The position numbers were made by a program, and so were the translations under genes. A model generated the notes under the pieces. The model saw only the letters and a program-made list of their open reading frames with translations, was not told the DNA's origin and made no database searches. Below are positions 47,591 through 59,678 of a stretch of DNA of 64,000 nucleotides, piece after piece; position 1 is the stretch's first letter, and every line of letters begins with the position of its first letter. The DNA comes from Alentia gelatinosa (taxonomy: Eukaryota > Annelida > Polychaeta > Phyllodocida > Polynoidae): NCBI GenBank assembly GCA_950022655.1, contig OX465584.1, positions 3,543,694 through 3,607,693 of the forward strand, in the 5' to 3' direction.

Positions 47591-48554
47591 GTTTCAAGGC
47601 ATCTGACAAACGCCCCGGAATGAGTGAGGTATCTAACATCTGACATTCACGTGATAGATAGCTTAGATATGTAAAATCAATCAATATCAACACGGACACT
47701 TGCCGAGCGGGCGACACACAGATGTAAACAAATGTCCGCACCACTTCAATCTGTATAACTTTACGGCGAGTGTTGGTATGGATCGATATCGCATATTAAA
47801 GCTATTCAAACGATATTAGGTGAATGCCCCACGTTATATACCTCGATATTTAGTAAATACGCACAATAACTCATTCCAAGGCGTTTGCTGAACGCTGCTA
47901 AACTCGCGAAGCGATGACATCCGCCATTTTAAAATCCTCGCTAGTCAGGCCATAGATAAGCCAGCTTAAGAAACGGTGTAATCTTTATTTGAATTCTTTA
48001 GTATAAAAAAGGAGCAAGACCAAGGTACCATAACAAGAAGTAGCATTGTATTACCAAGGTGCATCATTAAGTTTAAACGGAATTAACTTACTTATATCAA
48101 CAATTAAAAAAAAAAAAAAAAAAACCCAGAGAGCTTAACAATGACCATATTTTGTTCACATGTGCCTCGATTAGGAGATGACACTGCTGTACAACTAGGA
48201 CTCATGTAACACGGCTCTTAAAAAGTATACACGGGAAGAAGGTACGCAGTAAACCTATTGCATATGAAAGGATGTTTTGCTCGATAAAAAAAGAAAAATG
48301 GGGAAAACATTGGGGTTATTCAGGAGTTTAAAAAAAAACAGAAGAAAGTACCTGACCTGAACTTAGTGTGTAATGTGCGGCCTCATCTGTTAAGACAGCA
48401 ATACAGACTGAAAGGAGGCTCATTAGTGCAGGGACCGGTAAATTAGGAGTCTGACCACACGGTGAACGATGGAGATGTATAGAATGAGTACGTGACCACC
48501 GACAACTTACCCCGAGAGCAGCTCTGAGCACCTCAAGTGTCTCTTACCCTTTAT

Positions 48555-48975
48555 TATCCACCTAATAGAAAGTGCCCATAGAAAACACATGGTGAGTGTG
48601 TATCTACATACCCGGAGCATACAGATATATCCACCTGATACAAAGTGTCCATAGAAAACACATGGTGAGTGTGTATCTACATACCCGGAGCATACAGATA
48701 TATCCACCTGATACAAAGTGTCCATAAAAAACACATAGGGAGTGTGTATCTACATACCCAGAGCATACAGATATATCCACATATTACAAAGTGACCATAG
48801 AAAACACATAGGGAGTGTGTATCACCATACCCGGAGCAAACCGATATACCCACCTAATACAAAGTGTCCATAGAAAACACATAGGGAGTGTGTATCACCA
48901 TACCCAGAGCATACAGATATATCCACCTAATACACAGTGTCCATAGAAAACACATAGGGAGTGTGTATGGGCATA
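48555..48975 (+). repeat. Minisatellite, 73 bp period
   Basis: About six units of ATATATCCACCTGATACAAA, GTGTCCATAGAAAACACAT, GGTGAGTGTGTAT and a CATACCCGGAGCATACAG tail. The core CCACCTAATAC..GTGTCCATA...ACACATAGGGAGTGTGTAT also occurs in the arrays at 49567 and 63760. Confidence 0.9.
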
Positions 48976-49079
48976 TTTTCTATGCTCTGGGGGGTGCATA
49001 CGGAAAATTAGTGCATACGGAAAAATTGTGCATAACTAAAACGAACTGATATCTATATGCGACTTGTCTAGAAAAGGTG

Positions 49080-49215: not shown

Positions 49216-49566
49216 ATACTAAACCTATACGGCATATAGCCTATGATCCATGGGCGCCGCCATGACGCCCCCCGAGTGCATGTTCTTCACTAATGGAGGT
49301 GAAAAAGTGGGTGTTCTTCACTAATGGAGGTGCAAAAAAAGTGAGTGATAATTGGGAAGTGTCACAACTCTAGCTTTGCTCACATATGCATGTAAAGTGT
49401 TCCATGTGGAAAATATCATGTCTTGGGTTTAATTATTAGGTTATCCTACTCTGGAATGGGTGTAGAGAGTCAAAGGAACCATGGTAAAACATTAAGAGGC
49501 AGTTGAATTTCGTAAGAACAAAGAGCCAGAATACAGGTTCATGAACTAACAATGGCTCTGTCCCCT

Positions 49567-50145
49567 ATAGGGAGTGTGTATTATCCACCTAATACGGAGT
49601 CTCCACACTAAACCCATAGAGAGTGTGTATTATCCACCTAATACGGAGTCTCCATACTAAACCCATAGAGAGTGTGTATTATCCACCTAATACGGAGTCT
49701 CCATACTAAACCCATAGAGAGTGTGTATTATCCACCTAATACGGAGTCTCCATACTAAACCCATAGAGAGTGTGTATTATCCACCTAATACGGAGTCTCC
49801 ATACTAAACCCATAGAGAGTGTGTATTATCCACCTAATACCGAGTCTCCACACTAAACCTATAGGGAGTGTGTATTATCAACCTAATACCGAGTCTCCAC
49901 ACTAAACCTATAGAGAGTGTGTATTATCAACTTAATACCGAGTCTCCACACTAAACCTATAGGGAGTGTGTATTATCAACCTAATACCGAGTCTCCACAC
50001 TAAACCTATAGAGAGTGTGTATTATCAACTTAATACCGAGTCTCCATACTAAACCCATAGAGAGTGTGTATTATCAACTTAATACGGAGTCTCCATACTA
50101 AACCCATAGAGAGTGTGTATTATCCATGTAAGACTGAGTCTTCAT
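49567..50145 (+). repeat. Minisatellite, 49 bp period
   Basis: About twelve units of TATTATCCACCTAATACGGA, GTCTCCATACTAAACCCATA, GAGAGTGTG. Variants (CCACCTA or CAACTTA, CGGAG or CGAGT) are grouped in blocks. Confidence 0.95.
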
Positions 50146-50178
50146 ACTAAACCAAATTTGCAATGTTGAATGATTAAT

Positions 50179-50323
50179 ACAATATTAACTGGTTTCAGAT
50201 AAAAGGGCTCGTAATGTTGGATTAGATTATATATATGTAATGTCCTCGCTTTCGCTAAGTTATTACTACGCATCTAGTTCTGGGAAATTACCGCCACTTT
50301 TATCTGAAGCCAGTTAATATTGT
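50179..50323. mobile_element. MITE with ACAATATTAACTGGTTTCAG ends
   Basis: Inverted ends ACAATATTAACTGGTTTCAG... and ...CTGAAGCCAGTTAATATTGT extend about 30 bases inward (GATAAAAGG). Non-coding. Confidence 0.75.
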
Positions 50324-50329
50324 GTACTT

Positions 50330-50788
50330 AACATCCATATCTTAGTGTTTAATTCAGAGGAAAAGTTCTGAACAGCTCAAGTGTTCCTTCTCTTTTAACA
50401 CCGACATTAGTGTTTAATAGTGATATTTTAAATATTGTAAATAATGCCTCAAGGCATTATCTGGTCTACGCTGAGGAATGCCTCAAGGCATCATCCGCCC
50501 TGAACGGTTTAAATCAATGCCTGCGTACTAAACTTCAATAATTAATCACCTACACCTAAGAGCATTGGTTGTGAACTTGCCCTTTCAAGTTTATTGATAG
50601 AGACAGCACCAATACATCTAAACAAATTGGATTCATTTCTTTTGATAATCCTCTTTTAGCGCTCCAGTCAACATAAACGCCTCTGGGGTCATTGGTGATG
50701 ATATGTCTGTGCAGTGGTAGGGCCCCGGGATGGCTTCACTCGGTGAGGAGGAGTCTGAAGGATGACACCACCTCCCAGCACGGCTACC
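50330..50788. other. No recognised gene
   Basis: Contains a small pair of AATGCCTCAAGGCAT palindromes near 50440 and 50480 and nothing that I can call coding. Confidence 0.4.
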
Positions 50789-52086
50789 GTAAAACCCCGC
50801 TTATAGGCCGACCCCAGTTGTGAGCCGACCCCGCTTATAAGCCGACCCAGCTTAAAAGCCATCCAGCTTATAAGCCGACCCACCCCGGTTATAAGCCGAC
50901 CCCAGTTATAAGCCGACCCCACTTATAGGCCGACCCCGCTTATAAGCCGACCCGCTTATAGGCCGACCCCACTTATAAGCCGACCCCGCTTATAAGCCGA
51001 TCCTACTTAAAAGCCGACCCCGCTTATAGGCCGACCCCGCTTATAAGCTGAGCCCACTTATAAGCCGACCCAGCTTATAAGCCGATCCAGCTTATAAGCT
51101 GACCCACTCTGGTTATAAGCCGACCCCAGTTATAAGCCGACCCCACTTATAAGCCGACCCCACTTATAGGCCGACCCCGCTTATAAGCCGACACGCTTAT
51201 AGGCCGACCCCGCTTATAAGCCGACCCGCTTATAGGCCAACCCCGCTTATAAGCCGACCCGCTTATAGGCCGACCCCGCTTATAAGCCGACCCGCTTATA
51301 GGCCGACCCCGCTTATAAGCCAACCCCGCTTATAAGCCAACCCGCTTATAGGCTGACCCCGCTTATAAGCCGACCCCGCTTATAAGCCAACCCCGCTTAA
51401 AAGCCGATCCTACTTAAAAGCCGACCCCGCTTATAGGCCGACCCCGCTTATAAGCCGACCCCGCTTATAAGGCGACCCACCCCGGTTATAAGCCGACCCC
51501 GCTTATAAGCCGACCCCAGTTATAAGCCGCCCCCAGTTATAAGCCGGCCCCGCTTATAGGCCGACCCCACTTATAGGCTGACCCCGCTTATAAGCCAACC
51601 CCGCTTATAAGCCGATCCTACTTAAAAGCCGACCCCGCTTATAGGCCGACCCCGCTTATAGGCCGACCCCGCTTATAAGCCGACCCCGCTTATAAGGCGA
51701 CCCACCCCGGTTATAAGCCGACCCCGCTTATAAGCCGACCCCAGTTATAAGCCAACCCCACTTATAAGCCGCCCCCAGTTATAAGCCGACCCCGCTTATA
51801 GGCCGACCCCGCTTATTAGCCGCCCCCAGTTATAAGCCGGCCCCGCTTATAGGCCGACCCCGCTTATAGGCCGACCCCGCTTATAAGGCGACCCCGCTTA
51901 TAAGGCGACCCCAGTTATAAGCCGACCCCGCTTATAAGCCTACCCCGGTTATAAGCCGACCCCGGTTATAAGCCTACCCCGGTTATAAGCCGACCCCGGT
52001 TATAAGCCGACCCCGCTTATAAGCCGACCCCGGTTATGAGCCGACCCCGCTTATAAGCCGACCCCGGTTATGAGCCGACCCCGGTT
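50789..52086 (+). repeat. Minisatellite, 16-17 bp period, about 75 units
   Basis: The unit GCTTATAAGCCGACCCC and variants (GTTATAAG, ACTTATAAG, AAAAGCC, TATAGGCC, 16 bp form lacking one C) fill 1.3 kb. Each unit holds a GGCTTATAAGCC-type palindrome. The array opens with GTAAAACCCCGCTTAT, closely resembling the terminal repeat of pogo/Tigger-type elements such as the one at 52536. Confidence 0.95.
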
Positions 52087-52295
52087 ACAAACAAAATGCC
52101 CACAATGTACTGCTTATCCCAACTCACTGGGTTACTTGCAAGCCTTTATTACACAGCCCTAACAGAATGTACTTGACCGAAAACAGGCATGAAGTTGCCT
52201 TTTCAACGCCAGGTCTCTAAAAAATAAAAATAAAATATGTGGAATAACTTAACTGCAGAAGTCAGAAACGTTTTTTTTTTTTTTTTTTTTTTTTT

Positions 52296-52790
52296 CAATT
52301 TCTTTATTGATCTCTTGGATTATTCCCGTAGGTATACAATGTGGTTTGTCGTGTTAACATCGGAGAACAATAAGAGGTTCAAAACCTCAATCGTGTACGA
52401 TTGATTTTCATGGTTTTGACCTTGCCCTTATACTTCTGAGCATCACAAATAATAGACTGAGTTTTTTACAACATAACAAAACAAAAACAAAATACAGTGT
52501 ATGAACATCGATAAGCCCTCCGTCACAAAGTAGTACAGTAGAACCCCGCGTAAGCGGACACCCTCCGTTCCGGGCCAAAGTGTCCGCTTACGCGGGGTGT
52601 CCGCTTACGCGAGGTTAAAATAAACATCTAATAGAGGGAACCGTTCCGGGCAAAGGTGTCCGTTAACGCGGGGTGTCCGCTTACGCGGGGTGTCCGTTAG
52701 GCGGGGTTCTACTGTACTATAAACATGGAGTAATTACATTATAAAGTAACCAGTGCCTAAAATTACTCCATATATCATTGGTTTTCAAGT
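52296..52790 (-). other. LINE 3' untranslated region and polyadenylation signal
   Basis: Sequence between the ORF3 stop and the poly(A) tail. AATAAA (complement of TTTATT at about 52303-52308) lies just before the tail. Interrupted by the MITE at 52536-52714. Confidence 0.75.
52536..52714. mobile_element. pogo/Tigger-like MITE, 179 bp, TA target duplication
   Basis: Perfect terminal CAGTAGAACCCCGC / GCGGGGTTCTACTG flanked by TA on both sides (52534-52535 and 52715-52716). The interior is made of repeated GTGTCCGCTTACGCGGGG-type motifs in both orientations. The CAGTAGAACC terminus and TA duplication are typical of pogo-type members of the Tc1/mariner superfamily. Confidence 0.85.
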
Positions 52791-55667
52791 TCATATGTCC
52801 TCTAAGCTCTCTATCAGCTTCATTTTAGTCAGTGACTTAAAGTATTTTAAGTCTGGAGTGTTTCTTAAGATAGCTGGTTGACTGTTCCATAAGCTTCCTC
52901 CAACATATTGCACTGATGTTGCATAAGCTTTACAATTAGGTTTGAGTACTCGGAGAACAGGAGCGTCATAGAGTCTGGTGAGACCAAGTCTGTTATCTGT
53001 GAAATCAAGGTTCCTAGATCTTCTGAACATAAAATTTAGCAGGTGTACTTCTCTTCTTTTAAATAAATACGGTATGTTTGCTTGTATGTGAATATCTCTA
53101 GTAGAGGCATATCTTGGGGATTTCAAACATATTCTTAAACAGCGATTTTGAAGTAGCTGGAGTGATGTGGTTAGTTTTAGGAGGGTTTGCGAGAACAGTA
53201 CATCACCATAGTCTAGATGAGGCAGTATAGCAGCTGTGTATATCTTTAGGGCAGCTTTCTTTGATAAATAAGGGCGCATCTTGGAGAGCTGATACATTCT
53301 ATAACAGACCGTTCTTTTGATGTGTGCAATATGATGTCTATAATCCAAAACCGGGTCCAGATAGACTCCTAGGTATTTATATGATTGTACCTTGGATATA
53401 ACTTTATCATTAATGGATAACTTTAGGTCATTATTTACTTTTTTACGGTTTGAGGTAAAGTACATATACTTAGTCTTGCTTGAATTGATTGACAATTTGT
53501 TTTGTTCACACCAAGTATACAGTGTATCAAGGTCACTTTGGAGTAAATCAAAAAGATTGTTTCGTGCGATACCATGTGCATAAAGGACTGTATCGTCCGC
53601 ATACATCATTACAGAAGAACTTGCTAAAACAGATGTCAGATCATTAATATATACTAAGAAAAGGAGGGGACCCAAGATAGAGCCCTGCGGGACACCGTGC
53701 TTTATGGTTTTCAAAGAGGATGTAGTGTCGTTAACCCTTACGCATTGATGTCTTCCATCCAAATAGTTTGTGAACCATTTAAGCAACCCGTTTATAACCC
53801 CATAATTTTGTAATTTAGATAAGAGAATTTTGTGGTTTACCGTGTCAAAAGCTTTTTTGAAGTCAATGTATACTGCCAAAGTGTCCTGCCCTATATTCCT
53901 TTTAATTAAAATGTCATCCGTAAATTTACTTATTGCATCAATACAAGAGTACCCAGCCCTAAATCCAAATTGTTTTGGTGTTAAGATATTATTTTCTTCC
54001 AGAAAGGTATACAACTTTGCATGCACAATTCTTTCCATGATTTTGCTTACCACTGGGAGAAGCGAAATGGGTCTAAGATTTCCACAATTAAATGGGTCCC
54101 CTCCCTTTGGTATTGGGCGGATAACCGAGGTTTTCCAACTTAGAGGGATGTCAGCCTTTTCAAATACATTATTAAACAAGTCAGTAAAAACGATGGGTAT
54201 AGCAGACATAGCATCTTTGAATACACGGGTAGTAAGACCATCAATCATTGACTGTTTATTTATGTTTATGTCTTTAGCCAATAGTAGCAAATTTTCAGTC
54301 GTAGTTCCGATACGGTCCAGAGTATTCACATTTTGAGGGTCATAGCCTTTCCACGGTAGGAACATATTACAAGCCAGGTTATCCCCTACTTCATTAAAAT
54401 ATTTATTTATAAAATTAGCTGTATTGGTTTTAGGGATAAAAGATTGATTATTGTCTTTAAGCCTAATCTCCTCGTCCGTTTTTTCTGTTCCGGGAAGGAT
54501 TTTATCAATAACACGCCAAAACTTTTTGGGTTCATTTTGGTGAGTTTCAAGTTGATTTATAGTGTAGGCTTGGCGAGCGTTTTTTACTATACTATTTGCC
54601 CTATTTCTAGCTATTCGCGCTCTTTGCCAATCTATATCATTTTTTGTACGTTTAGCTATTTTCAAAAGTTTGTTTTTATCCTTGATCGATTCCAATACCT
54701 CTCTTGATATCCAGGGCTCACTATTTGGTCTAATACTGAAAGTTCTGGATTTACAGCCAATGTCCAAAAATTTATTAATAGCATTTAATATGAAATTCCA
54801 TTTTTCAGATGACGAGTTTAGTTCAAAATAATTCATCCACTTAATATTGTTATTAAGAAAAAATCTAAGATCCTCGCTTTTGTATTTTACATATGAGCGG
54901 CCTTTGACCTGTTTCTTTATATTGGGAGTAAAACATGTTTTCTTCACCATAAAGATGGCTTGGTGGTCGCTGTACGATTGTGTTAGAACTCCTGATGTAC
55001 TCACATTATTGGCAGTTGTAAAAATGAGGTCTATAGCAGAATTTGTATCGGAGAATCTCGTTGTGTCTTTTATAATTTGTTTTAGACCAAACTGTTCTAA
55101 TTCTTCAATTAGATAAAGTACTTCGTTGTTATTACGTTTCAGGATATTAAGGTTAAAATCACCAATCAGGACTAAGTCACCGTTTAGTGTATCAACAATC
55201 TCTTTGACTATTTGAACGAGGATATCCGTAAAAATTAGGGCGTTTCCTTTGTTCGGTCTATAAATATTGCAAACAATCTGCTCTTTGGATCGGCCCTTGT
55301 GGACAACCACAATCTGTATTTCGATATTCTTGGTGCTAGTATTTAGGTGTGCAAATTTGGTATGGTCATAATCCAAGTCAGCCTTAATGTACATACAAAG
55401 ACCACCGCCAATTTTGGGTTCATCGTCCCTTTGATTTTCCTTCCAATTTCTATCCCATCTTAGTTTGTTATATGAGGTAAGCTGATAATCTTTTAGAGCA
55501 TCCTTTTCAGTAAGCCAGGTCTCTGAAAATGTTAGGATATCCCAGATTGGGGGTCTGTTATAAACAATAATTGACTCATATTTTGAGCGTAGGCTTCTGA
55601 CATTGGCATGGCAGATTTTGAGGCCCTTCAGTTTGGAGACCTCGGGTATGTCAATTAACTTCGCCAT
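52791..55667 (-). CDS. LINE ORF3: APE endonuclease and reverse transcriptase
   Basis: From the ATG at 55667 this is 958 residues (the frame is open upstream to about 55757 without an ATG). The N-terminal APE-type endonuclease shows Asn22 (CHAN), Glu49 (SETW), Asp170/Asn172 (GDFN) and Ser233-Asp-His235, all expected active-site motifs. The central reverse transcriptase has FGFRAGYS, motif A with Asp602 (YIDFKKAFD), motif B GVPQGSILGP, motif C YADD at 689-692 and the YLG motif E. The C-terminal region (HLDYG...LQLLQNRCLR) is the usual thumb/connection of Jockey/CR1-group elements. The protein nicks target DNA and reverse transcribes the element RNA. No inactivating change is visible. Confidence 0.92.
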   Translation of the reverse strand: MAKLIDIPEVSKLKGLKICHANVRSLRSKYESIIVYNRPPIWDILTFSETWLTEKDALKDYQLTSYNKLRWDRNWKENQRDDEPKIGGGLCMYIKADLDYDHTKFAHLNTSTKNIEIQIVVVHKGRSKEQIVCNIYRPNKGNALIFTDILVQIVKEIVDTLNGDLVLIGDFNLNILKRNNNEVLYLIEELEQFGLKQIIKDTTRFSDTNSAIDLIFTTANNVSTSGVLTQSYSDHQAIFMVKKTCFTPNIKKQVKGRSYVKYKSEDLRFFLNNNIKWMNYFELNSSSEKWNFILNAINKFLDIGCKSRTFSIRPNSEPWISREVLESIKDKNKLLKIAKRTKNDIDWQRARIARNRANSIVKNARQAYTINQLETHQNEPKKFWRVIDKILPGTEKTDEEIRLKDNNQSFIPKTNTANFINKYFNEVGDNLACNMFLPWKGYDPQNVNTLDRIGTTTENLLLLAKDININKQSMIDGLTTRVFKDAMSAIPIVFTDLFNNVFEKADIPLSWKTSVIRPIPKGGDPFNCGNLRPISLLPVVSKIMERIVHAKLYTFLEENNILTPKQFGFRAGYSCIDAISKFTDDILIKRNIGQDTLAVYIDFKKAFDTVNHKILLSKLQNYGVINGLLKWFTNYLDGRHQCVRVNDTTSSLKTIKHGVPQGSILGPLLFLVYINDLTSVLASSSVMMYADDTVLYAHGIARNNLFDLLQSDLDTLYTWCEQNKLSINSSKTKYMYFTSNRKKVNNDLKLSINDKVISKVQSYKYLGVYLDPVLDYRHHIAHIKRTVCYRMYQLSKMRPYLSKKAALKIYTAAILPHLDYGDVLFSQTLLKLTTSLQLLQNRCLRICLKSPRYASTRDIHIQANIPYLFKRREVHLLNFMFRRSRNLDFTDNRLGLTRLYDAPVLRVLKPNCKAYATSVQYVGGSLWNSQPAILRNTPDLKYFKSLTKMKLIESLEDI

Positions 55668-56229
55668 AGAATATACAGGTAATAGAGATACATATGTGCA
55701 GTTTCCAAGCTTAACCTGAGTAGGAGTAGGCAATACAATATATACATCAGCTGATATTCAACAATGATAGTCGGGGTTAAAGGGTTCATACAACAGCAAA
55801 TTAGAGACAGGATAATCTCGGCCACTTCGGCCATTACCCTGGCAAAGAAACAGGGATAGTCATAAGGCAAGAACATATTTCCTACCTACCGGTAATCTCC
55901 GGTGTAGAGCATCATATATATGTGGTTGAGCATCCAAGTAAATAATTAGGCTCGTGCTATGTAGGTAGACACAGGAGCATTTAGCAAAATAAAGATCTGG
56001 GGAGGCACACTCAGGTTAATTGCTATAGGTAACAGAAATTACTCTAGAGGTCCTTCCAGTCATGTATATCAGTAACAATATGTTACTTCATTAAATCGTT
56101 ATACTAGGTGGGGAGGGGGGGTGCTATAGGCTAATCCGCCAGCTAGAGAAACTAAGGAGCGGGTGAAGTCGATGTTGTTCACTATAGGTAACAGTGATCA
56201 AGTCAACGAGCCCGGGTAGATACATTTCA

Positions 56230-56982
56230 TTACCACTTAGATTTGGTTGATGGCATGTTTGACTCAAAGGAATTTAGGAAACTCTGCGCCCATAAGTCCA
56301 GTAACTCGGGGGTTGGGTGGATTCCATCACTTAAATATGCAAAGTAGTGGGTGAACTTATTGTTCCGCCATTTATGGACCTTGTTAGCCAACCAGGGAAA
56401 TGCAAGGGGCTGGTTTGCATTTAAGTCAATCAGGCTTTTGTTGAAGTTGAGGGTTGCTTGGAGTGCAATGTTGTGCATTTCTTCATTCGCATTTTTGACA
56501 CACCTCCGAATGTCGGCACCAACAAGGGGACATATCAGGAAGCGTGATTTTGGATGTAGCTCTTCCAACCATTCGTATCCTGCTTTGGCATACATAAATA
56601 GATGGTCATGAAGATCGTTTGCTGAGGTCCATTTCATTTCGATGTTGAAGCACTTTGGGTTGTTTTCATCCACTGCTTTAGTGGTTACATCACATATACC
56701 ACCCACAATGTATATAATTGAGTTGGGCGAGAAATCAAGGTGTTTTTTAGCCAATACGATAAGCTCTTGCAGTTTCGCCCCGGGAAATGAGAAGACATTA
56801 AATCGCTGGGCATTCACATTTAGGGCTGTAATAGATTCGTAAAGTTTCTTCACCCTGGAATCACCGATGATGACATTGTTCGGGATCGGGGACCATGTAC
56901 GAATAAGGACCTCCTCTAGACGCTGAATGTCATGGGAAAGTTTGGTAGGATATGGTGACCTGCGTGGTCGGTAATGAGCCAT
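56230..56982 (-). CDS. LINE ORF2: SGNH-hydrolase-like protein
   Basis: 250 residues from ATG 56982. Block I is IIGDSRV with the candidate nucleophile Ser42, block II the FPGAKL glycine, block III GGICD where GxND is usual, and block V SDGIHPTPE with Asp219 and His222. These give the Ser-Asp-His arrangement of SGNH/GDSL esterases. Esterase domains are known in ORF1 of some CR1-type elements; here it is a separate frame between ORF1 and the polymerase, 49 bases after ORF1. Possible roles are lipid or membrane interaction or deacylation; none is proven. The Asn-to-Cys change in block III may affect the oxyanion hole. Confidence 0.8.
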   Translation of the reverse strand: MAHYRPRRSPYPTKLSHDIQRLEEVLIRTWSPIPNNVIIGDSRVKKLYESITALNVNAQRFNVFSFPGAKLQELIVLAKKHLDFSPNSIIYIVGGICDVTTKAVDENNPKCFNIEMKWTSANDLHDHLFMYAKAGYEWLEELHPKSRFLICPLVGADIRRCVKNANEEMHNIALQATLNFNKSLIDLNANQPLAFPWLANKVHKWRNNKFTHYFAYLSDGIHPTPELLDLWAQSFLNSFESNMPSTKSKW

Positions 56983-57031
56983 TTTCCCTTAACAGGTGAG
57001 AGGGTCAACTTACAGTGATACACTATGTTTT

Positions 57032-58411
57032 CTAGGTACGAAGAGAGTCTCTGACTTGTTGGAGAAGAGATCCCAGTTTGTTGCCTTTTATGTTGTCAGC
57101 TGTGAATTTGTCTAGTTCTCCCAGATGTACGCCACAACCCCAGTAGTCGTCTTTCGTAGCCTCATAGAGGTTTTTTCCTGCAGTTGAGAGTAGTAGGTCA
57201 CACAACTCTTGGTTTTGTGAGAACTTGGCCTTGAGTATATCAATCATGTGAGCGTCCCGCTTGTCTGCCCATGATTGTGAGAAAGGTAGTTGTTTGGCAG
57301 CAAACATTGCGTCGATGGGTGCGTTTGTTTTGCGGATTTTGTCCGCTACCTCCTGGTTCCCCATATCCAGAGCTGCTTCGTACTGGAAGCAGTGTTCAGC
57401 CGATCGGTGAGATAAACCATCCTTTTTTAACTCCGCTGGGAACAAGTTGGATAAGGGGGCATGGGCACCTTGGAAGAAGATGCCATGCTCTTTTTCCACT
57501 GTTTTTATGTTTTGGATCGAGAGGTTTTTGGGGAGGTTGTTGATGTGGTCGTAACTGTACTGCTTTCCGTCAATCTGGATTTTTACCCCGCGAACTTGGC
57601 ACTTTATGTTGAGTTTACGTGCAACAGCTTGAATGGCTCTCATATCACGGTTGATACGTCTATCGGCTGGGGAGAGGTCGTCCGATAAAGTTACTCGTCT
57701 CCATTTCTCATTTCCCTTGAGTTTTCCAATGTTTTTGAAGATTTGTGCCTTGGTGTTTACACTTACAAGGTGTACCAAAATCGAACGTATCCGACCCGTG
57801 TTGGGACGCCCTCGTCTATATATAGACTCAATTAGTGCCTCGTCCCCTTCAAGGCCAACGTCGTTAAGTAATTGAGTAAACCTGTCACGTAGGTTTTCGT
57901 TGGTTTCTTCCTTCAGGCCTTCAATTAGCAGCACTTTACGCCTTTGTACATTTTCAAGTTTTAGAATGCGGTCGTCAAACTCGTACACCACTTTTGTCGT
58001 GCTGTCTGCAGTATCCAGTAAACTAGCAATATCCCCTTCGTGTGTTAACAATGATAGCTCTAGATCCTCAACTTTGTTAGCTGTTGAATCGTATTTTTCA
58101 CTGAGTTTGGATAATAAATCTGCCGTTTGGTTTAGTAGGTTATCACTCTTATCCATCCTCACCTGGACTTTCTCCAACAGCTCCGTAGTTTTCTGCGAGA
58201 TAGCATCATGTCGATCCAGCCTGGCTTCGAGTTCATTGATTTTTTCAATAATGAGTCGAGACGGGGAGTCGATAGTCAAGGTAGGCGGTGCCGGCACGGT
58301 GGGCGATAAAGCAGGCCCTGTACGTTCCGGTGAGCTCACCCTTTCTGGTGACTTGTTTTTAGGCGATTTCTCTGGTTCATGTTTCTTTCCGGTATTTTTT
58401 CTGGGACCCAT
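57032..58411 (-). CDS. LINE ORF1: coiled coil, L1-ORF1-like RNA-binding region and NADAR domain
   Basis: 459 residues from ATG 58411 (an earlier GTG at 58459 is less likely). Residues 1-50 are basic and Ser/Pro-rich, and 52-155 form a long heptad coiled coil for oligomerisation. About 158-292 resemble the RRM plus C-terminal domain of L1 ORF1 proteins (RRKVLLIEGL, LVHLVSVNTK, WRRVTLSDDLSPADR). Residues 309-456 are a NADAR/YbiA-type domain: FQGAHAPLSNLFP, then SAEHCFQ with Glu339, MIDILKAKFSQN, LLLSTAGKNLYEA, DDYWGCG with Trp424, and GNKLGSLLQQVRD. NADAR proteins act on ADP-ribose-type N-glycosides, and some remove ADP-ribose from guanine in DNA. Fusion to a LINE nucleocapsid-like protein is unusual. 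Confidence 0.85.
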   Translation of the reverse strand: MGPRKNTGKKHEPEKSPKNKSPERVSSPERTGPALSPTVPAPPTLTIDSPSRLIIEKINELEARLDRHDAISQKTTELLEKVQVRMDKSDNLLNQTADLLSKLSEKYDSTANKVEDLELSLLTHEGDIASLLDTADSTTKVVYEFDDRILKLENVQRRKVLLIEGLKEETNENLRDRFTQLLNDVGLEGDEALIESIYRRGRPNTGRIRSILVHLVSVNTKAQIFKNIGKLKGNEKWRRVTLSDDLSPADRRINRDMRAIQAVARKLNIKCQVRGVKIQIDGKQYSYDHINNLPKNLSIQNIKTVEKEHGIFFQGAHAPLSNLFPAELKKDGLSHRSAEHCFQYEAALDMGNQEVADKIRKTNAPIDAMFAAKQLPFSQSWADKRDAHMIDILKAKFSQNQELCDLLLSTAGKNLYEATKDDYWGCGVHLGELDKFTADNIKGNKLGSLLQQVRDSLRT

Positions 58412-58460
58412 CTTGATCACAACAGTTAACCCTCGCTGAAGGTTTTCAGATAGCTCCACT

Positions 58461-59060
58461 AGGGTAGGGCATTCACGTACAAAAGGCGATTTACTCTACA
58501 GCGCGTTAGAACCGGTCCGTTCACTCAGCCGTGCATTCTCTCACCGGATCACGTTGAGTCGAAGGACCTGTTTAAATAATTCCTAAAAAAATTGCTGCCA
58601 AGTAAAATACCATGGTTCGTGTTTTAAAACATACCTAATGACACTCAGGCCTGTTTATTCCCCTCACTCCCCCTCACTCACAACTTTTTGTAGAATCTTT
58701 TTATATAATATGAACGTTTCAATGAAGTTTTGTACCAATACAGGATATCTGGCAAATTAATACCATCAAATGATTCACATTTATATATCGCTGAGTTTTT
58801 TTGTACTGGTACTTTATCATAGGTTTAAACTGATTTTGAGGTTTTTCGAAAATCAATTTTTTTTAAATCGAAACGATAAAAGCCGACTCCCGACCTTGGC
58901 AAAAATTCATATGCCGATTTTTATCAAAAATCCCTAAAAGAATGGGCTTCTAAGCGGTTTTAAGAGGTCTTACGGTAAGAGGTTTTACGGTAGGTAGGCG
59001 CATTCAGCAGGGACGTGCTCCTAAAGCGTCTGAGAGATTGAATCTGCTGACAGGAGAAGA
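58461..59060. other. LINE 5' region or flank, no gene seen
   Basis: Sequence upstream of ORF1. The first part may be the LINE 5' untranslated region, but I found neither a terminus nor a target duplication matching the sequence next to the poly(A) tail. Confidence 0.35.
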
Positions 59061-59092: not shown

Positions 59093-59359
59093 TACCCCAG
59101 CCCTCCTCAGCCTTGTCCGGAGAACCACGGAGCAGGGCCGAGTATTAAATCCCGGCCCCGCGCCCAGCCACCAGAAACACAGCCCGCACCGCTCATTTCT
59201 CACAGTGCTTCCCTGACCGGTGACCTCTGACCTCTGACCTCCCGGACGCCAAGGCCTGACAGCAAATACCAGCAACTGGCGAGAGCTGACAATAAAGTCT
59301 GGGTACGACCCCTGAGCAGTTGGTGGCTGCGAGGCGCATCCATAACCCCCGGAGAGGCC

Positions 59360-59503
59360 ATGCATCAGCGGGCGGTGCGGGCGGGGCGGGCGGGGCGGGC
59401 GGGGCGGGCGGGGCGGGCGGGGCGGGCGGGGCGGGCGGGGCGGGCGGGGCGGGCGGGGCGGGCGGGCCGGGCGGGGCGGGCGGGGCGGGCGGGGCGGGGC
59501 TCA
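59360..59503 (+). repeat. GC-rich minisatellite, 9 bp period GGGCGGGGC
   Basis: About 15 units of GGGCGGGGC with one GGGCGGGCC variant, the most GC-rich segment of the window. Runs of three and four G every few bases give very strong G-quadruplex potential on the plus strand. Open frames across it (Gly/Ala, Arg/Ala or Pro/Ala repeats) are by-products of the 9 bp period. Confidence 0.95.
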
Positions 59504-59678
59504 GCCGGGAGTGGAAGCACTGAGCGGGCCCGCGCGGGGATATAATCCGGTCACCTCGGCTACACATGTACCCTGCCGGGGGAGGAGGGACGGAGGGTTT
59601 GGTACATGTGTCAGGGGTGGGTAGGTTAAGGGCCGGGTAAGTAGGCCTGGTAGTAGTAGTAGGAGCGGGAATATTAGG

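Follow-up and report, generated by a model that had tools for sequence, protein, structure and literature searches.

The 64,000-nucleotide stretch of Alentia gelatinosa DNA analysed here (contig OX465584.1, hereafter the window) carries a LINE element whose ORF1 protein ends in a NADAR domain, and this fusion is found in every scored copy of the family, is kept under purifying selection there, and recurs in divergent ORF1 proteins of the same genome and of other records. Our main reading, to which we assign a rough probability of 0.45, is that the LINE ribonucleoprotein uses the ORF1-tethered NADAR on ADP-ribosylated guanine or a related base adduct, and that the clade of the window copy has shifted away from this. 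The fusion of a LINE ORF1 with NADAR is already known, since PMC12477816 (2025), which describes NADAR in the Pol of Ectocarpus Gypsy elements, notes in one sentence the same domain in ORF1s of several Crassostrea gigas Tx1 LINE families; its breadth, the selection on it and the change in its active site seem to be new. A literature search that left most subscription papers and Repbase outside its range returned nothing on NADAR in LINEs outside Tx1, on selection acting on it or on the lysine loss described below and, among the matches listed, no other paper on NADAR in retrotransposons.

The element is a LINE, with an ORF2 that carries endonuclease and reverse transcriptase, dispersed near-identical copies, and a 3' poly(A). 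Its parts are as follows.

52271..58528, minus strand: whole LINE element, about 6.26 kb, as delimited by homology to copy L009 (58528 to 52278) and by the poly(A) run ending at 52271
58412..58528, minus strand: short 5' UTR, with CTGAGTGA near its start, common to the 5' ends of several copies
57032..58411, minus strand: ORF1, 459 aa, with a disordered N-terminal tail, coiled coil, RRM, CTD and NADAR
57941..58261, minus strand: ORF1 coiled coil, residues 51-157, modelled by AlphaFold2 as a single long helix (block pLDDT 72-95)
57497..57940, minus strand: ORF1 RRM and CTD, residues 158-305 approximately, L1 ORF1p-like by profile match to 2ykp/2yko and Foldseek match to 2yko
57035..57487, minus strand: NADAR domain, residues 309-459 (Pfam 311-458, and 8bau), with the residues discussed below: E339, A346, K373, W381, E417, W424, C426, H429 and G431
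56230..56982, minus strand: ORFX, 250 aa, SGNH/GDSL-hydrolase-like, with a GDSR block and a DGIHP block
52791..55733, minus strand: ORF2, 980 aa, endonuclease (PF03372, 1e-07) and reverse transcriptase (PF00078, 7.7e-41)
52520..52807, minus strand: repeat-rich block of about 290 bp, mostly in the 3' UTR, a gap in the L009 homology
52271..52295, minus strand: poly(A) run of 25 A, downstream of AATAAA

A preliminary description of this DNA, made from the letters alone, had placed one open frame at 57032..58411; these coordinates proved exact (ATG at 58411, stop codon ending at 57032), and the strand, which it had left out, is the minus strand, the plus strand of the interval being full of stops. 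Its anatomy of the protein, namely a coiled coil, an L1-ORF1-like region and a C-terminal NADAR for which it quoted five motifs, all of them present, was borne out by Pfam, NCBIfam, profile and AlphaFold2/Foldseek comparisons, among them the profile and model check against NADAR structures that it had itself proposed. The C-terminal domain matches Pfam PF08719 over residues 311-458 (E = 3.9e-24; 86.2 bits against a cut-off of 35.1) and NCBIfam TIGR02464 (81.4 bits against 73.7), and by sequence its PDB matches include the Phytophthora nicotianae NADAR 8bau (E = 6.9e-13) and YbiA 2b3w (E = 2.6e-11), so that significant profile match and fold both place it in the NADAR superfamily, YbiA subfamily. 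The RRM/CTD gave no Pfam match in a single-sequence search; a profile of 30 related ORF1s recovered human L1 ORF1p (2ykp/2yko) at 2e-8 and 8bau at 8e-30, in a list that also contains many generic coiled coils at weaker E-values. The AlphaFold2 model built on that 30-row alignment (mean pLDDT 84.4, pTM 0.55) has residues 1-38 below 50, the helix at 51-157, and NADAR blocks at 87-96. A Foldseek search of the PDB with this model returned, at E ≤ 0.001, only 12 chains, two of them NADARs and ten human L1 ORF1p (8bau 7.9e-10, 2b3w 6.1e-08, best L1 ORF1p 2yko 5.9e-07). With its coiled coil, single RRM and CTD, the protein is a type II (L1-type) ORF1; human L1 ORF1p (2yko, 2ykp) has these parts in the same order but lacks a NADAR.

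ORF2 starts from a TTG, the first in-frame ATG lying at 55667. Its best PDB match is R2 (61.4 bits), and L1 ORF2p is absent from its nine matches at E ≤ 0.01, which sets it apart from the L1/Tx1 group; to judge by its motifs, it may be CR1/L2-like. The GDSR and DGIHP motifs of ORFX are invariant in the four copies aligned; the protein has no Pfam match and only weak PDB matches (4o8s/4ok0, E about 0.05; EstA, 0.56). Among 21 regions of 9.9 kb (the window and L009-L028), ORFX was detected in nine, with only residues 1-109 in L011 and L012, and went undetected in 12 (L013-L023 and L026). A three-ORF layout of this kind, with a separate SGNH-like ORFX between ORF1 and ORF2, is unusual. CR1/L2 LINEs with a type IV, esterase-bearing ORF1 (PMC4120745) also encode an SGNH/esterase-like protein, whereas in the window element it is an ORF of its own, besides a type II ORF1. 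The block at 52520..52807 is a probable nested small insertion, judging from its repeats and the gap that it makes in the homology to L009. A target-site duplication was sought at 11 copies, where exact matches of 5-7 nt, and of 11 nt in TA-rich sequence in L012, were found, none of them convincing; short or varied duplications may still be present.

A search of the host assembly (1.234 Gb, 101 contigs) with the full ORF1 gave 92 scored matches from 3864 first-look candidates, some of these rows being clusters on contig C6; all 92 extend to residue 358 or beyond, past the catalytic E339, and 61 have no internal stop by our own count. ORF1 without its NADAR (residues 56-299) was then used as query, with 150 places scored of 2279 candidates, and from these the ten likeliest to lack the domain were chosen, on account of their short frames and their absence from the full-ORF1 list of 92. 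A NADAR match lies downstream in all ten, of at least 110 residues in nine and of the first 21 only in L063. The preliminary description had called for such a search and had regarded family copies lacking the domain as the mark of a one-off fusion; no copy wholly without NADAR was found among the 92 scored matches and the ten loci opened, and a one-off fusion is rejected.

The family has been mobile recently. L011 and L012, which lie on two chromosomes, share 99.73% identity across 5526 bp and both have ORF1 and ORF2 open, and L016/L019 (99.70%) and L020/L023 (99.50%) are likewise near-identical pairs on different chromosomes. On C6, ORF1-NADAR matches whose scores are equal or almost equal lie clustered at about 11.29-11.68 Mb, 15.76-16.27 Mb and 21.96-22.02 Mb, which suggests amplification through segmental duplication at these places.

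The NADAR domain is under purifying selection. Eighteen pairs of copies were compared by the Nei-Gojobori method, and NADAR dS was saturated in five of them; it could be measured in the other 13, of which 12 had a NADAR dN/dS of 0.03-0.15 and one, the recent pair L024/L025 (dS 0.033), had 0.45. Where measurable, the ratio was 0.02-0.07 for the RRM/CTD and 0.08-0.22 for the N-terminal and coiled-coil part, values that, like those for NADAR, are rough because many dS are high or saturated, and clear in direction. Distances between NADAR domains agree with distances between ORF2s (r = 0.956 over nine copies, left from 15 after removal of six near-duplicates; none of 2000 permutations as high), as would be expected if NADAR has been inherited along with the element.

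The fusion reaches well beyond this family. When the genome was searched with Pfam NADAR, 150 of the 3136 candidates were scored and each of these exceeded the cut-off; the window copy is not among these best 150 places. Eight of them were fetched, and six proved to encode proteins 580-811 residues long, alignable with the window ORF1 at 20-26% identity, in which NADAR lies at the end or near the C-terminus; Pfam sees only NADAR in them, their RRM/CTD being assigned by alignment to the window ORF1 and by reading. The other two are a stand-alone NADAR (L055) and an LRAT-repeat-NADAR protein (L054). The long open frame of the latter (G000:C5:15167400-15171200), which is not a LINE ORF1, encodes an LRAT domain and lysine-rich repeats, and the NADAR at its C-terminus has the lysine of position K50.

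ORF2 partners were compared for two of the six divergent ORF1s, L049 and L052. The ORF2 beside L049 matches R2 (58 bits), L1 (51.5 bits) and the reverse transcriptase 8c8j (58 bits) about equally. Behind the 580-aa NADAR ORF1 of L052, on the same strand and at 2.1 kb, lies an ORF2 (L058) that scores 239.6 bits to human L1 ORF2p, its closest match among solved structures, and so falls in the L1/Tx1 group. A second 580-aa NADAR frame, on C4, has the same ORF2 start downstream (126 residues, 99% identity), about 2.5 kb behind the NADAR match as against 2.3 kb in L052, and the sequence preceding it is 98.9% identical (801 bases read). On sequence grounds, NADAR-bearing ORF1s accompany at least two kinds of ORF2 that differ deeply from each other, because the partner of L052 is L1-like and the window ORF2 is best matched to R2, without an L1 match. 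In the NADAR tree, a single origin of all ORF1-type NADARs was not rejected (p-AU 0.27), nor was one that includes the LRAT-NADAR protein (0.42). Either repeated capture of NADAR or exchange of ORF1s between LINEs may account for this distribution; PMC4120745 describes reticulate evolution among LINE ORF1s.

Protein searches beyond this genome returned 17 distinct proteins, 12 of which (P0001, P0002, P0004, P0005, P0008-P0010 and P0012-P0016) are ORF1-NADAR fusions by reading and alignment. P0003, P0006 and P0007 contain NADAR and no ORF1 part, and P0017 is a related ORF1-type protein without NADAR, which shows that an ORF1 of this type need not carry the domain. Prokaryote contigs searched with P0001 yielded one archaeal NADAR only, and viral contigs searched with P0013 gave no match. 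The C. gigas Tx1 LINE ORF1s (Repbase; PMC12477816) resemble the window element in joining a YbiA-family NADAR to a LINE ORF1; they differ in that the window ORF2 is not L1/Tx1-like and the window NADAR lacks K50, and selection and recent mobility are added here. The Ectocarpus Gypsy elements are also NADAR-bearing retrotransposons, but LTR elements in which the domain is part of Pol and not of a LINE ORF1. DarT1-associated NADAR antitoxins share the fold with the window domain, whereas the window NADAR is fused to ORF1 and has no DarT-type transferase beside it, the ORFs next to ORF1 within the element being ORFX and the endonuclease/reverse transcriptase ORF2.

What separates the window clade from most of these relatives is its active site. 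Residues are numbered as in P. nicotianae, with roles from PMC11543638 mapped onto the window protein through sequence alignment to 8bau; an offset of 2 between the 8bau chain and the numbering of that paper was deduced from E43, E125, D130 and W133. According to PMC11543638, a lysine (K50 in P. nicotianae, K95 in the E. coli C7 NADAR) contacts adenine and pyrophosphate and is essential for efficient hydrolysis by the latter enzyme, arginine being tolerated in vitro, and E43 and E125 contact the distal ribose. All 41 copies of the window's own clade keep E43 (window E339), W89 (W381), E125 (E417, the glutamate of the YbiA subfamily) and W133 (W424), and 37 of the 41 have Lys or Arg at the R79 position. 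The window copy thus shares with 8bau the fold, E43, E125 and W133; it differs from it in its fusion to ORF1 and in having Ala (A346) at the K50 position, and canonical guanine-ADP-ribose hydrolysis cannot be assumed for it because of this alanine. Across the 41 copies that position holds Ala in 25, Leu in 4, Lys in 3, Phe in 3, Arg in 2, Met in 2, Tyr in 1 and His in 1, as against 17 Lys and 1 Arg in the 18 other ORF1-type NADARs (six from this genome, 12 from other records), all of which have E43 and E125, and Lys in 7 of 7 NADARs without an ORF1 part. The 22-row clade that holds the window copy (support 100/98) has no lysine there, L031 alone having Arg. Among the rows outside this clade, the position is occupied by Lys in L044 and L045, by Arg in L046, by Met in L040 and by His in L048, so that the loss of the lysine may have occurred repeatedly.

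The window's own clade has also gained a C-x2-H-x-G motif adjoining W133, with C426 and G431 in all 36 rows and H429 in 35 of them (the 41 copies minus the damaged or duplicate L010, L019, L021, L026 and L027; the tree dropped nine more near-duplicates). Each of the three has an equivalent in only 1 of the 18 other ORF1-type NADARs. The motif probably arose before the lysine was lost, because L044, L045 and L047 have both. From these alignments the chemistry of the window clade has probably shifted, and the hydrolase idea would suit the other ORF1-NADAR families better than the window copy, because this clade mostly lacks K50 and 17 of 18 of the others keep it.

ORF1p trimers coat LINE RNA, as is established for L1. 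With ORF1 as an L1-type RNA-packaging protein and NADAR tethered behind each RRM/CTD head, one NADAR per subunit would put many domains acting on base-linked ADP-ribose along the LINE RNA and perhaps along first-strand cDNA. The substrate of NADAR there would be guanine that bears ADP-ribose, or a related base-ribose adduct, in the element's own RNA or cDNA or in the target DNA; by acting on it NADAR would keep reverse transcription from being blocked. Families with E43, K50 and E125 would be expected to be active hydrolases; in the window clade, where the pocket appears rebuilt, with K50 gone and C-x2-H-x-G added next to the catalytic strand, and selection persists, a shifted substrate or ADP-ribose binding would be expected rather than the textbook reaction. 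The recurrence of NADAR in many copies and in divergent element families hints that it protects the element, and a repair or counter-defence module would be the economical reading, for which we infer substrate, benefit and opponent. The preliminary description had proposed much the same, that the element removes ADP-ribose by means of its NADAR: the presence of the domain in every scored copy, the purifying selection and the retention of E43, E125 and W133 speak for it, and the alanine of the window copy speaks against it. The background on which it drew holds, in that NADARs reverse guanine ADP-ribosylation in DNA (PMC11543638), and in RNA too (PMC11833690), and that an N2-guanine ADP-ribosylating activity is reported from clams (PMC11209040).

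Other explanations of the conserved domain have to be set against the ORF1-tethered activity. The NADAR of the window clade might be a pseudoenzyme, still folded and able to bind nucleic acid, ADP-ribose or ORF1 partners and no longer capable of hydrolysis. The loss of the adenine- and pyrophosphate-contacting lysine, absent throughout the 22-row clade and from L040 and L048, together with the retention of the fold, E125 and W133, speaks for this; on the other hand, both distal-ribose contacts, E43 and E125, are invariant in 41 of 41 copies, and the near-invariant new C426, H429 and G431 by W133 suggest a site rebuilt rather than dead. Of the two contacts, E43 alone proves little, because the corresponding E88A change in the E. 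coli C7 NADAR has only a minor effect in vitro (PMC11543638). We consider a binding-only role unlikely, though it is a serious competitor. Chance readthrough, or a capture confined to the window copy, deserves practically no credence: it is refuted by the 92 of 92 scored matches, the purifying selection and the 12 fusion proteins in other records speak against it too, and no support for it was found.

Alternatively, the domain may have a target other than host-made guanine ADP-ribosylation, such as another N-glycoside or a processing step of the RNA intermediate. YbiA cleaves the N-glycosidic bond of riboflavin intermediates (PMC11543638), the window-clade pocket differs from that of its relatives, and NADARs occur in both the Ectocarpus Gypsy Pol and the oyster Tx1 ORF1s, for which the authors of PMC12477816 suggest a role in RNA processing; in the Gypsy Pol, RNA processing fits as well as counter-defence. 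Yet all NADARs tested in PMC11833690 acted on guanosine-ADP-ribose RNA, and a tether to an RNA-binding protein would favour a nucleic-acid substrate, which leaves a different target improbable in our view. The ORF1-tethered activity on base-linked ADP-ribose can also be taken further, to a more speculative proposal that we think rather less likely to be right than wrong: NADAR-bearing ORF1 would be a portable counter-defence of animal LINEs with unrelated ORF2s against guanine ADP-ribosylation of their RNA or cDNA, and an arms race in the window clade would have led to a new active site and a changed substrate. If so, some invertebrate hosts would restrict retroelements by base ADP-ribosylation. 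Guanine-ADP-ribosylating proteins and NADARs are known, endogenous targets hardly so; a selected NADAR in the RNA-packaging protein of an element with at least 92 scored copies points to retroelement nucleic acid as a likely target. The ORF1-type NADARs with and without the lysine further offer a natural comparison for substrate change within one fold.

Several tandem repeats flank the element. Immediately past its 3' end, a long array of 17-bp repeats of the CTTATAAGCCGACCCCG type occupies 50777-52080, with 49-bp repeats at 49417-50249 and 73-bp repeats at 48482-49048. Upstream of the LINE, a 9-bp G+C repeat (GCGGGCGGG) lies at 59341-59520 and is crossed by a minus-strand ORF of 124 aa at 59193-59567.
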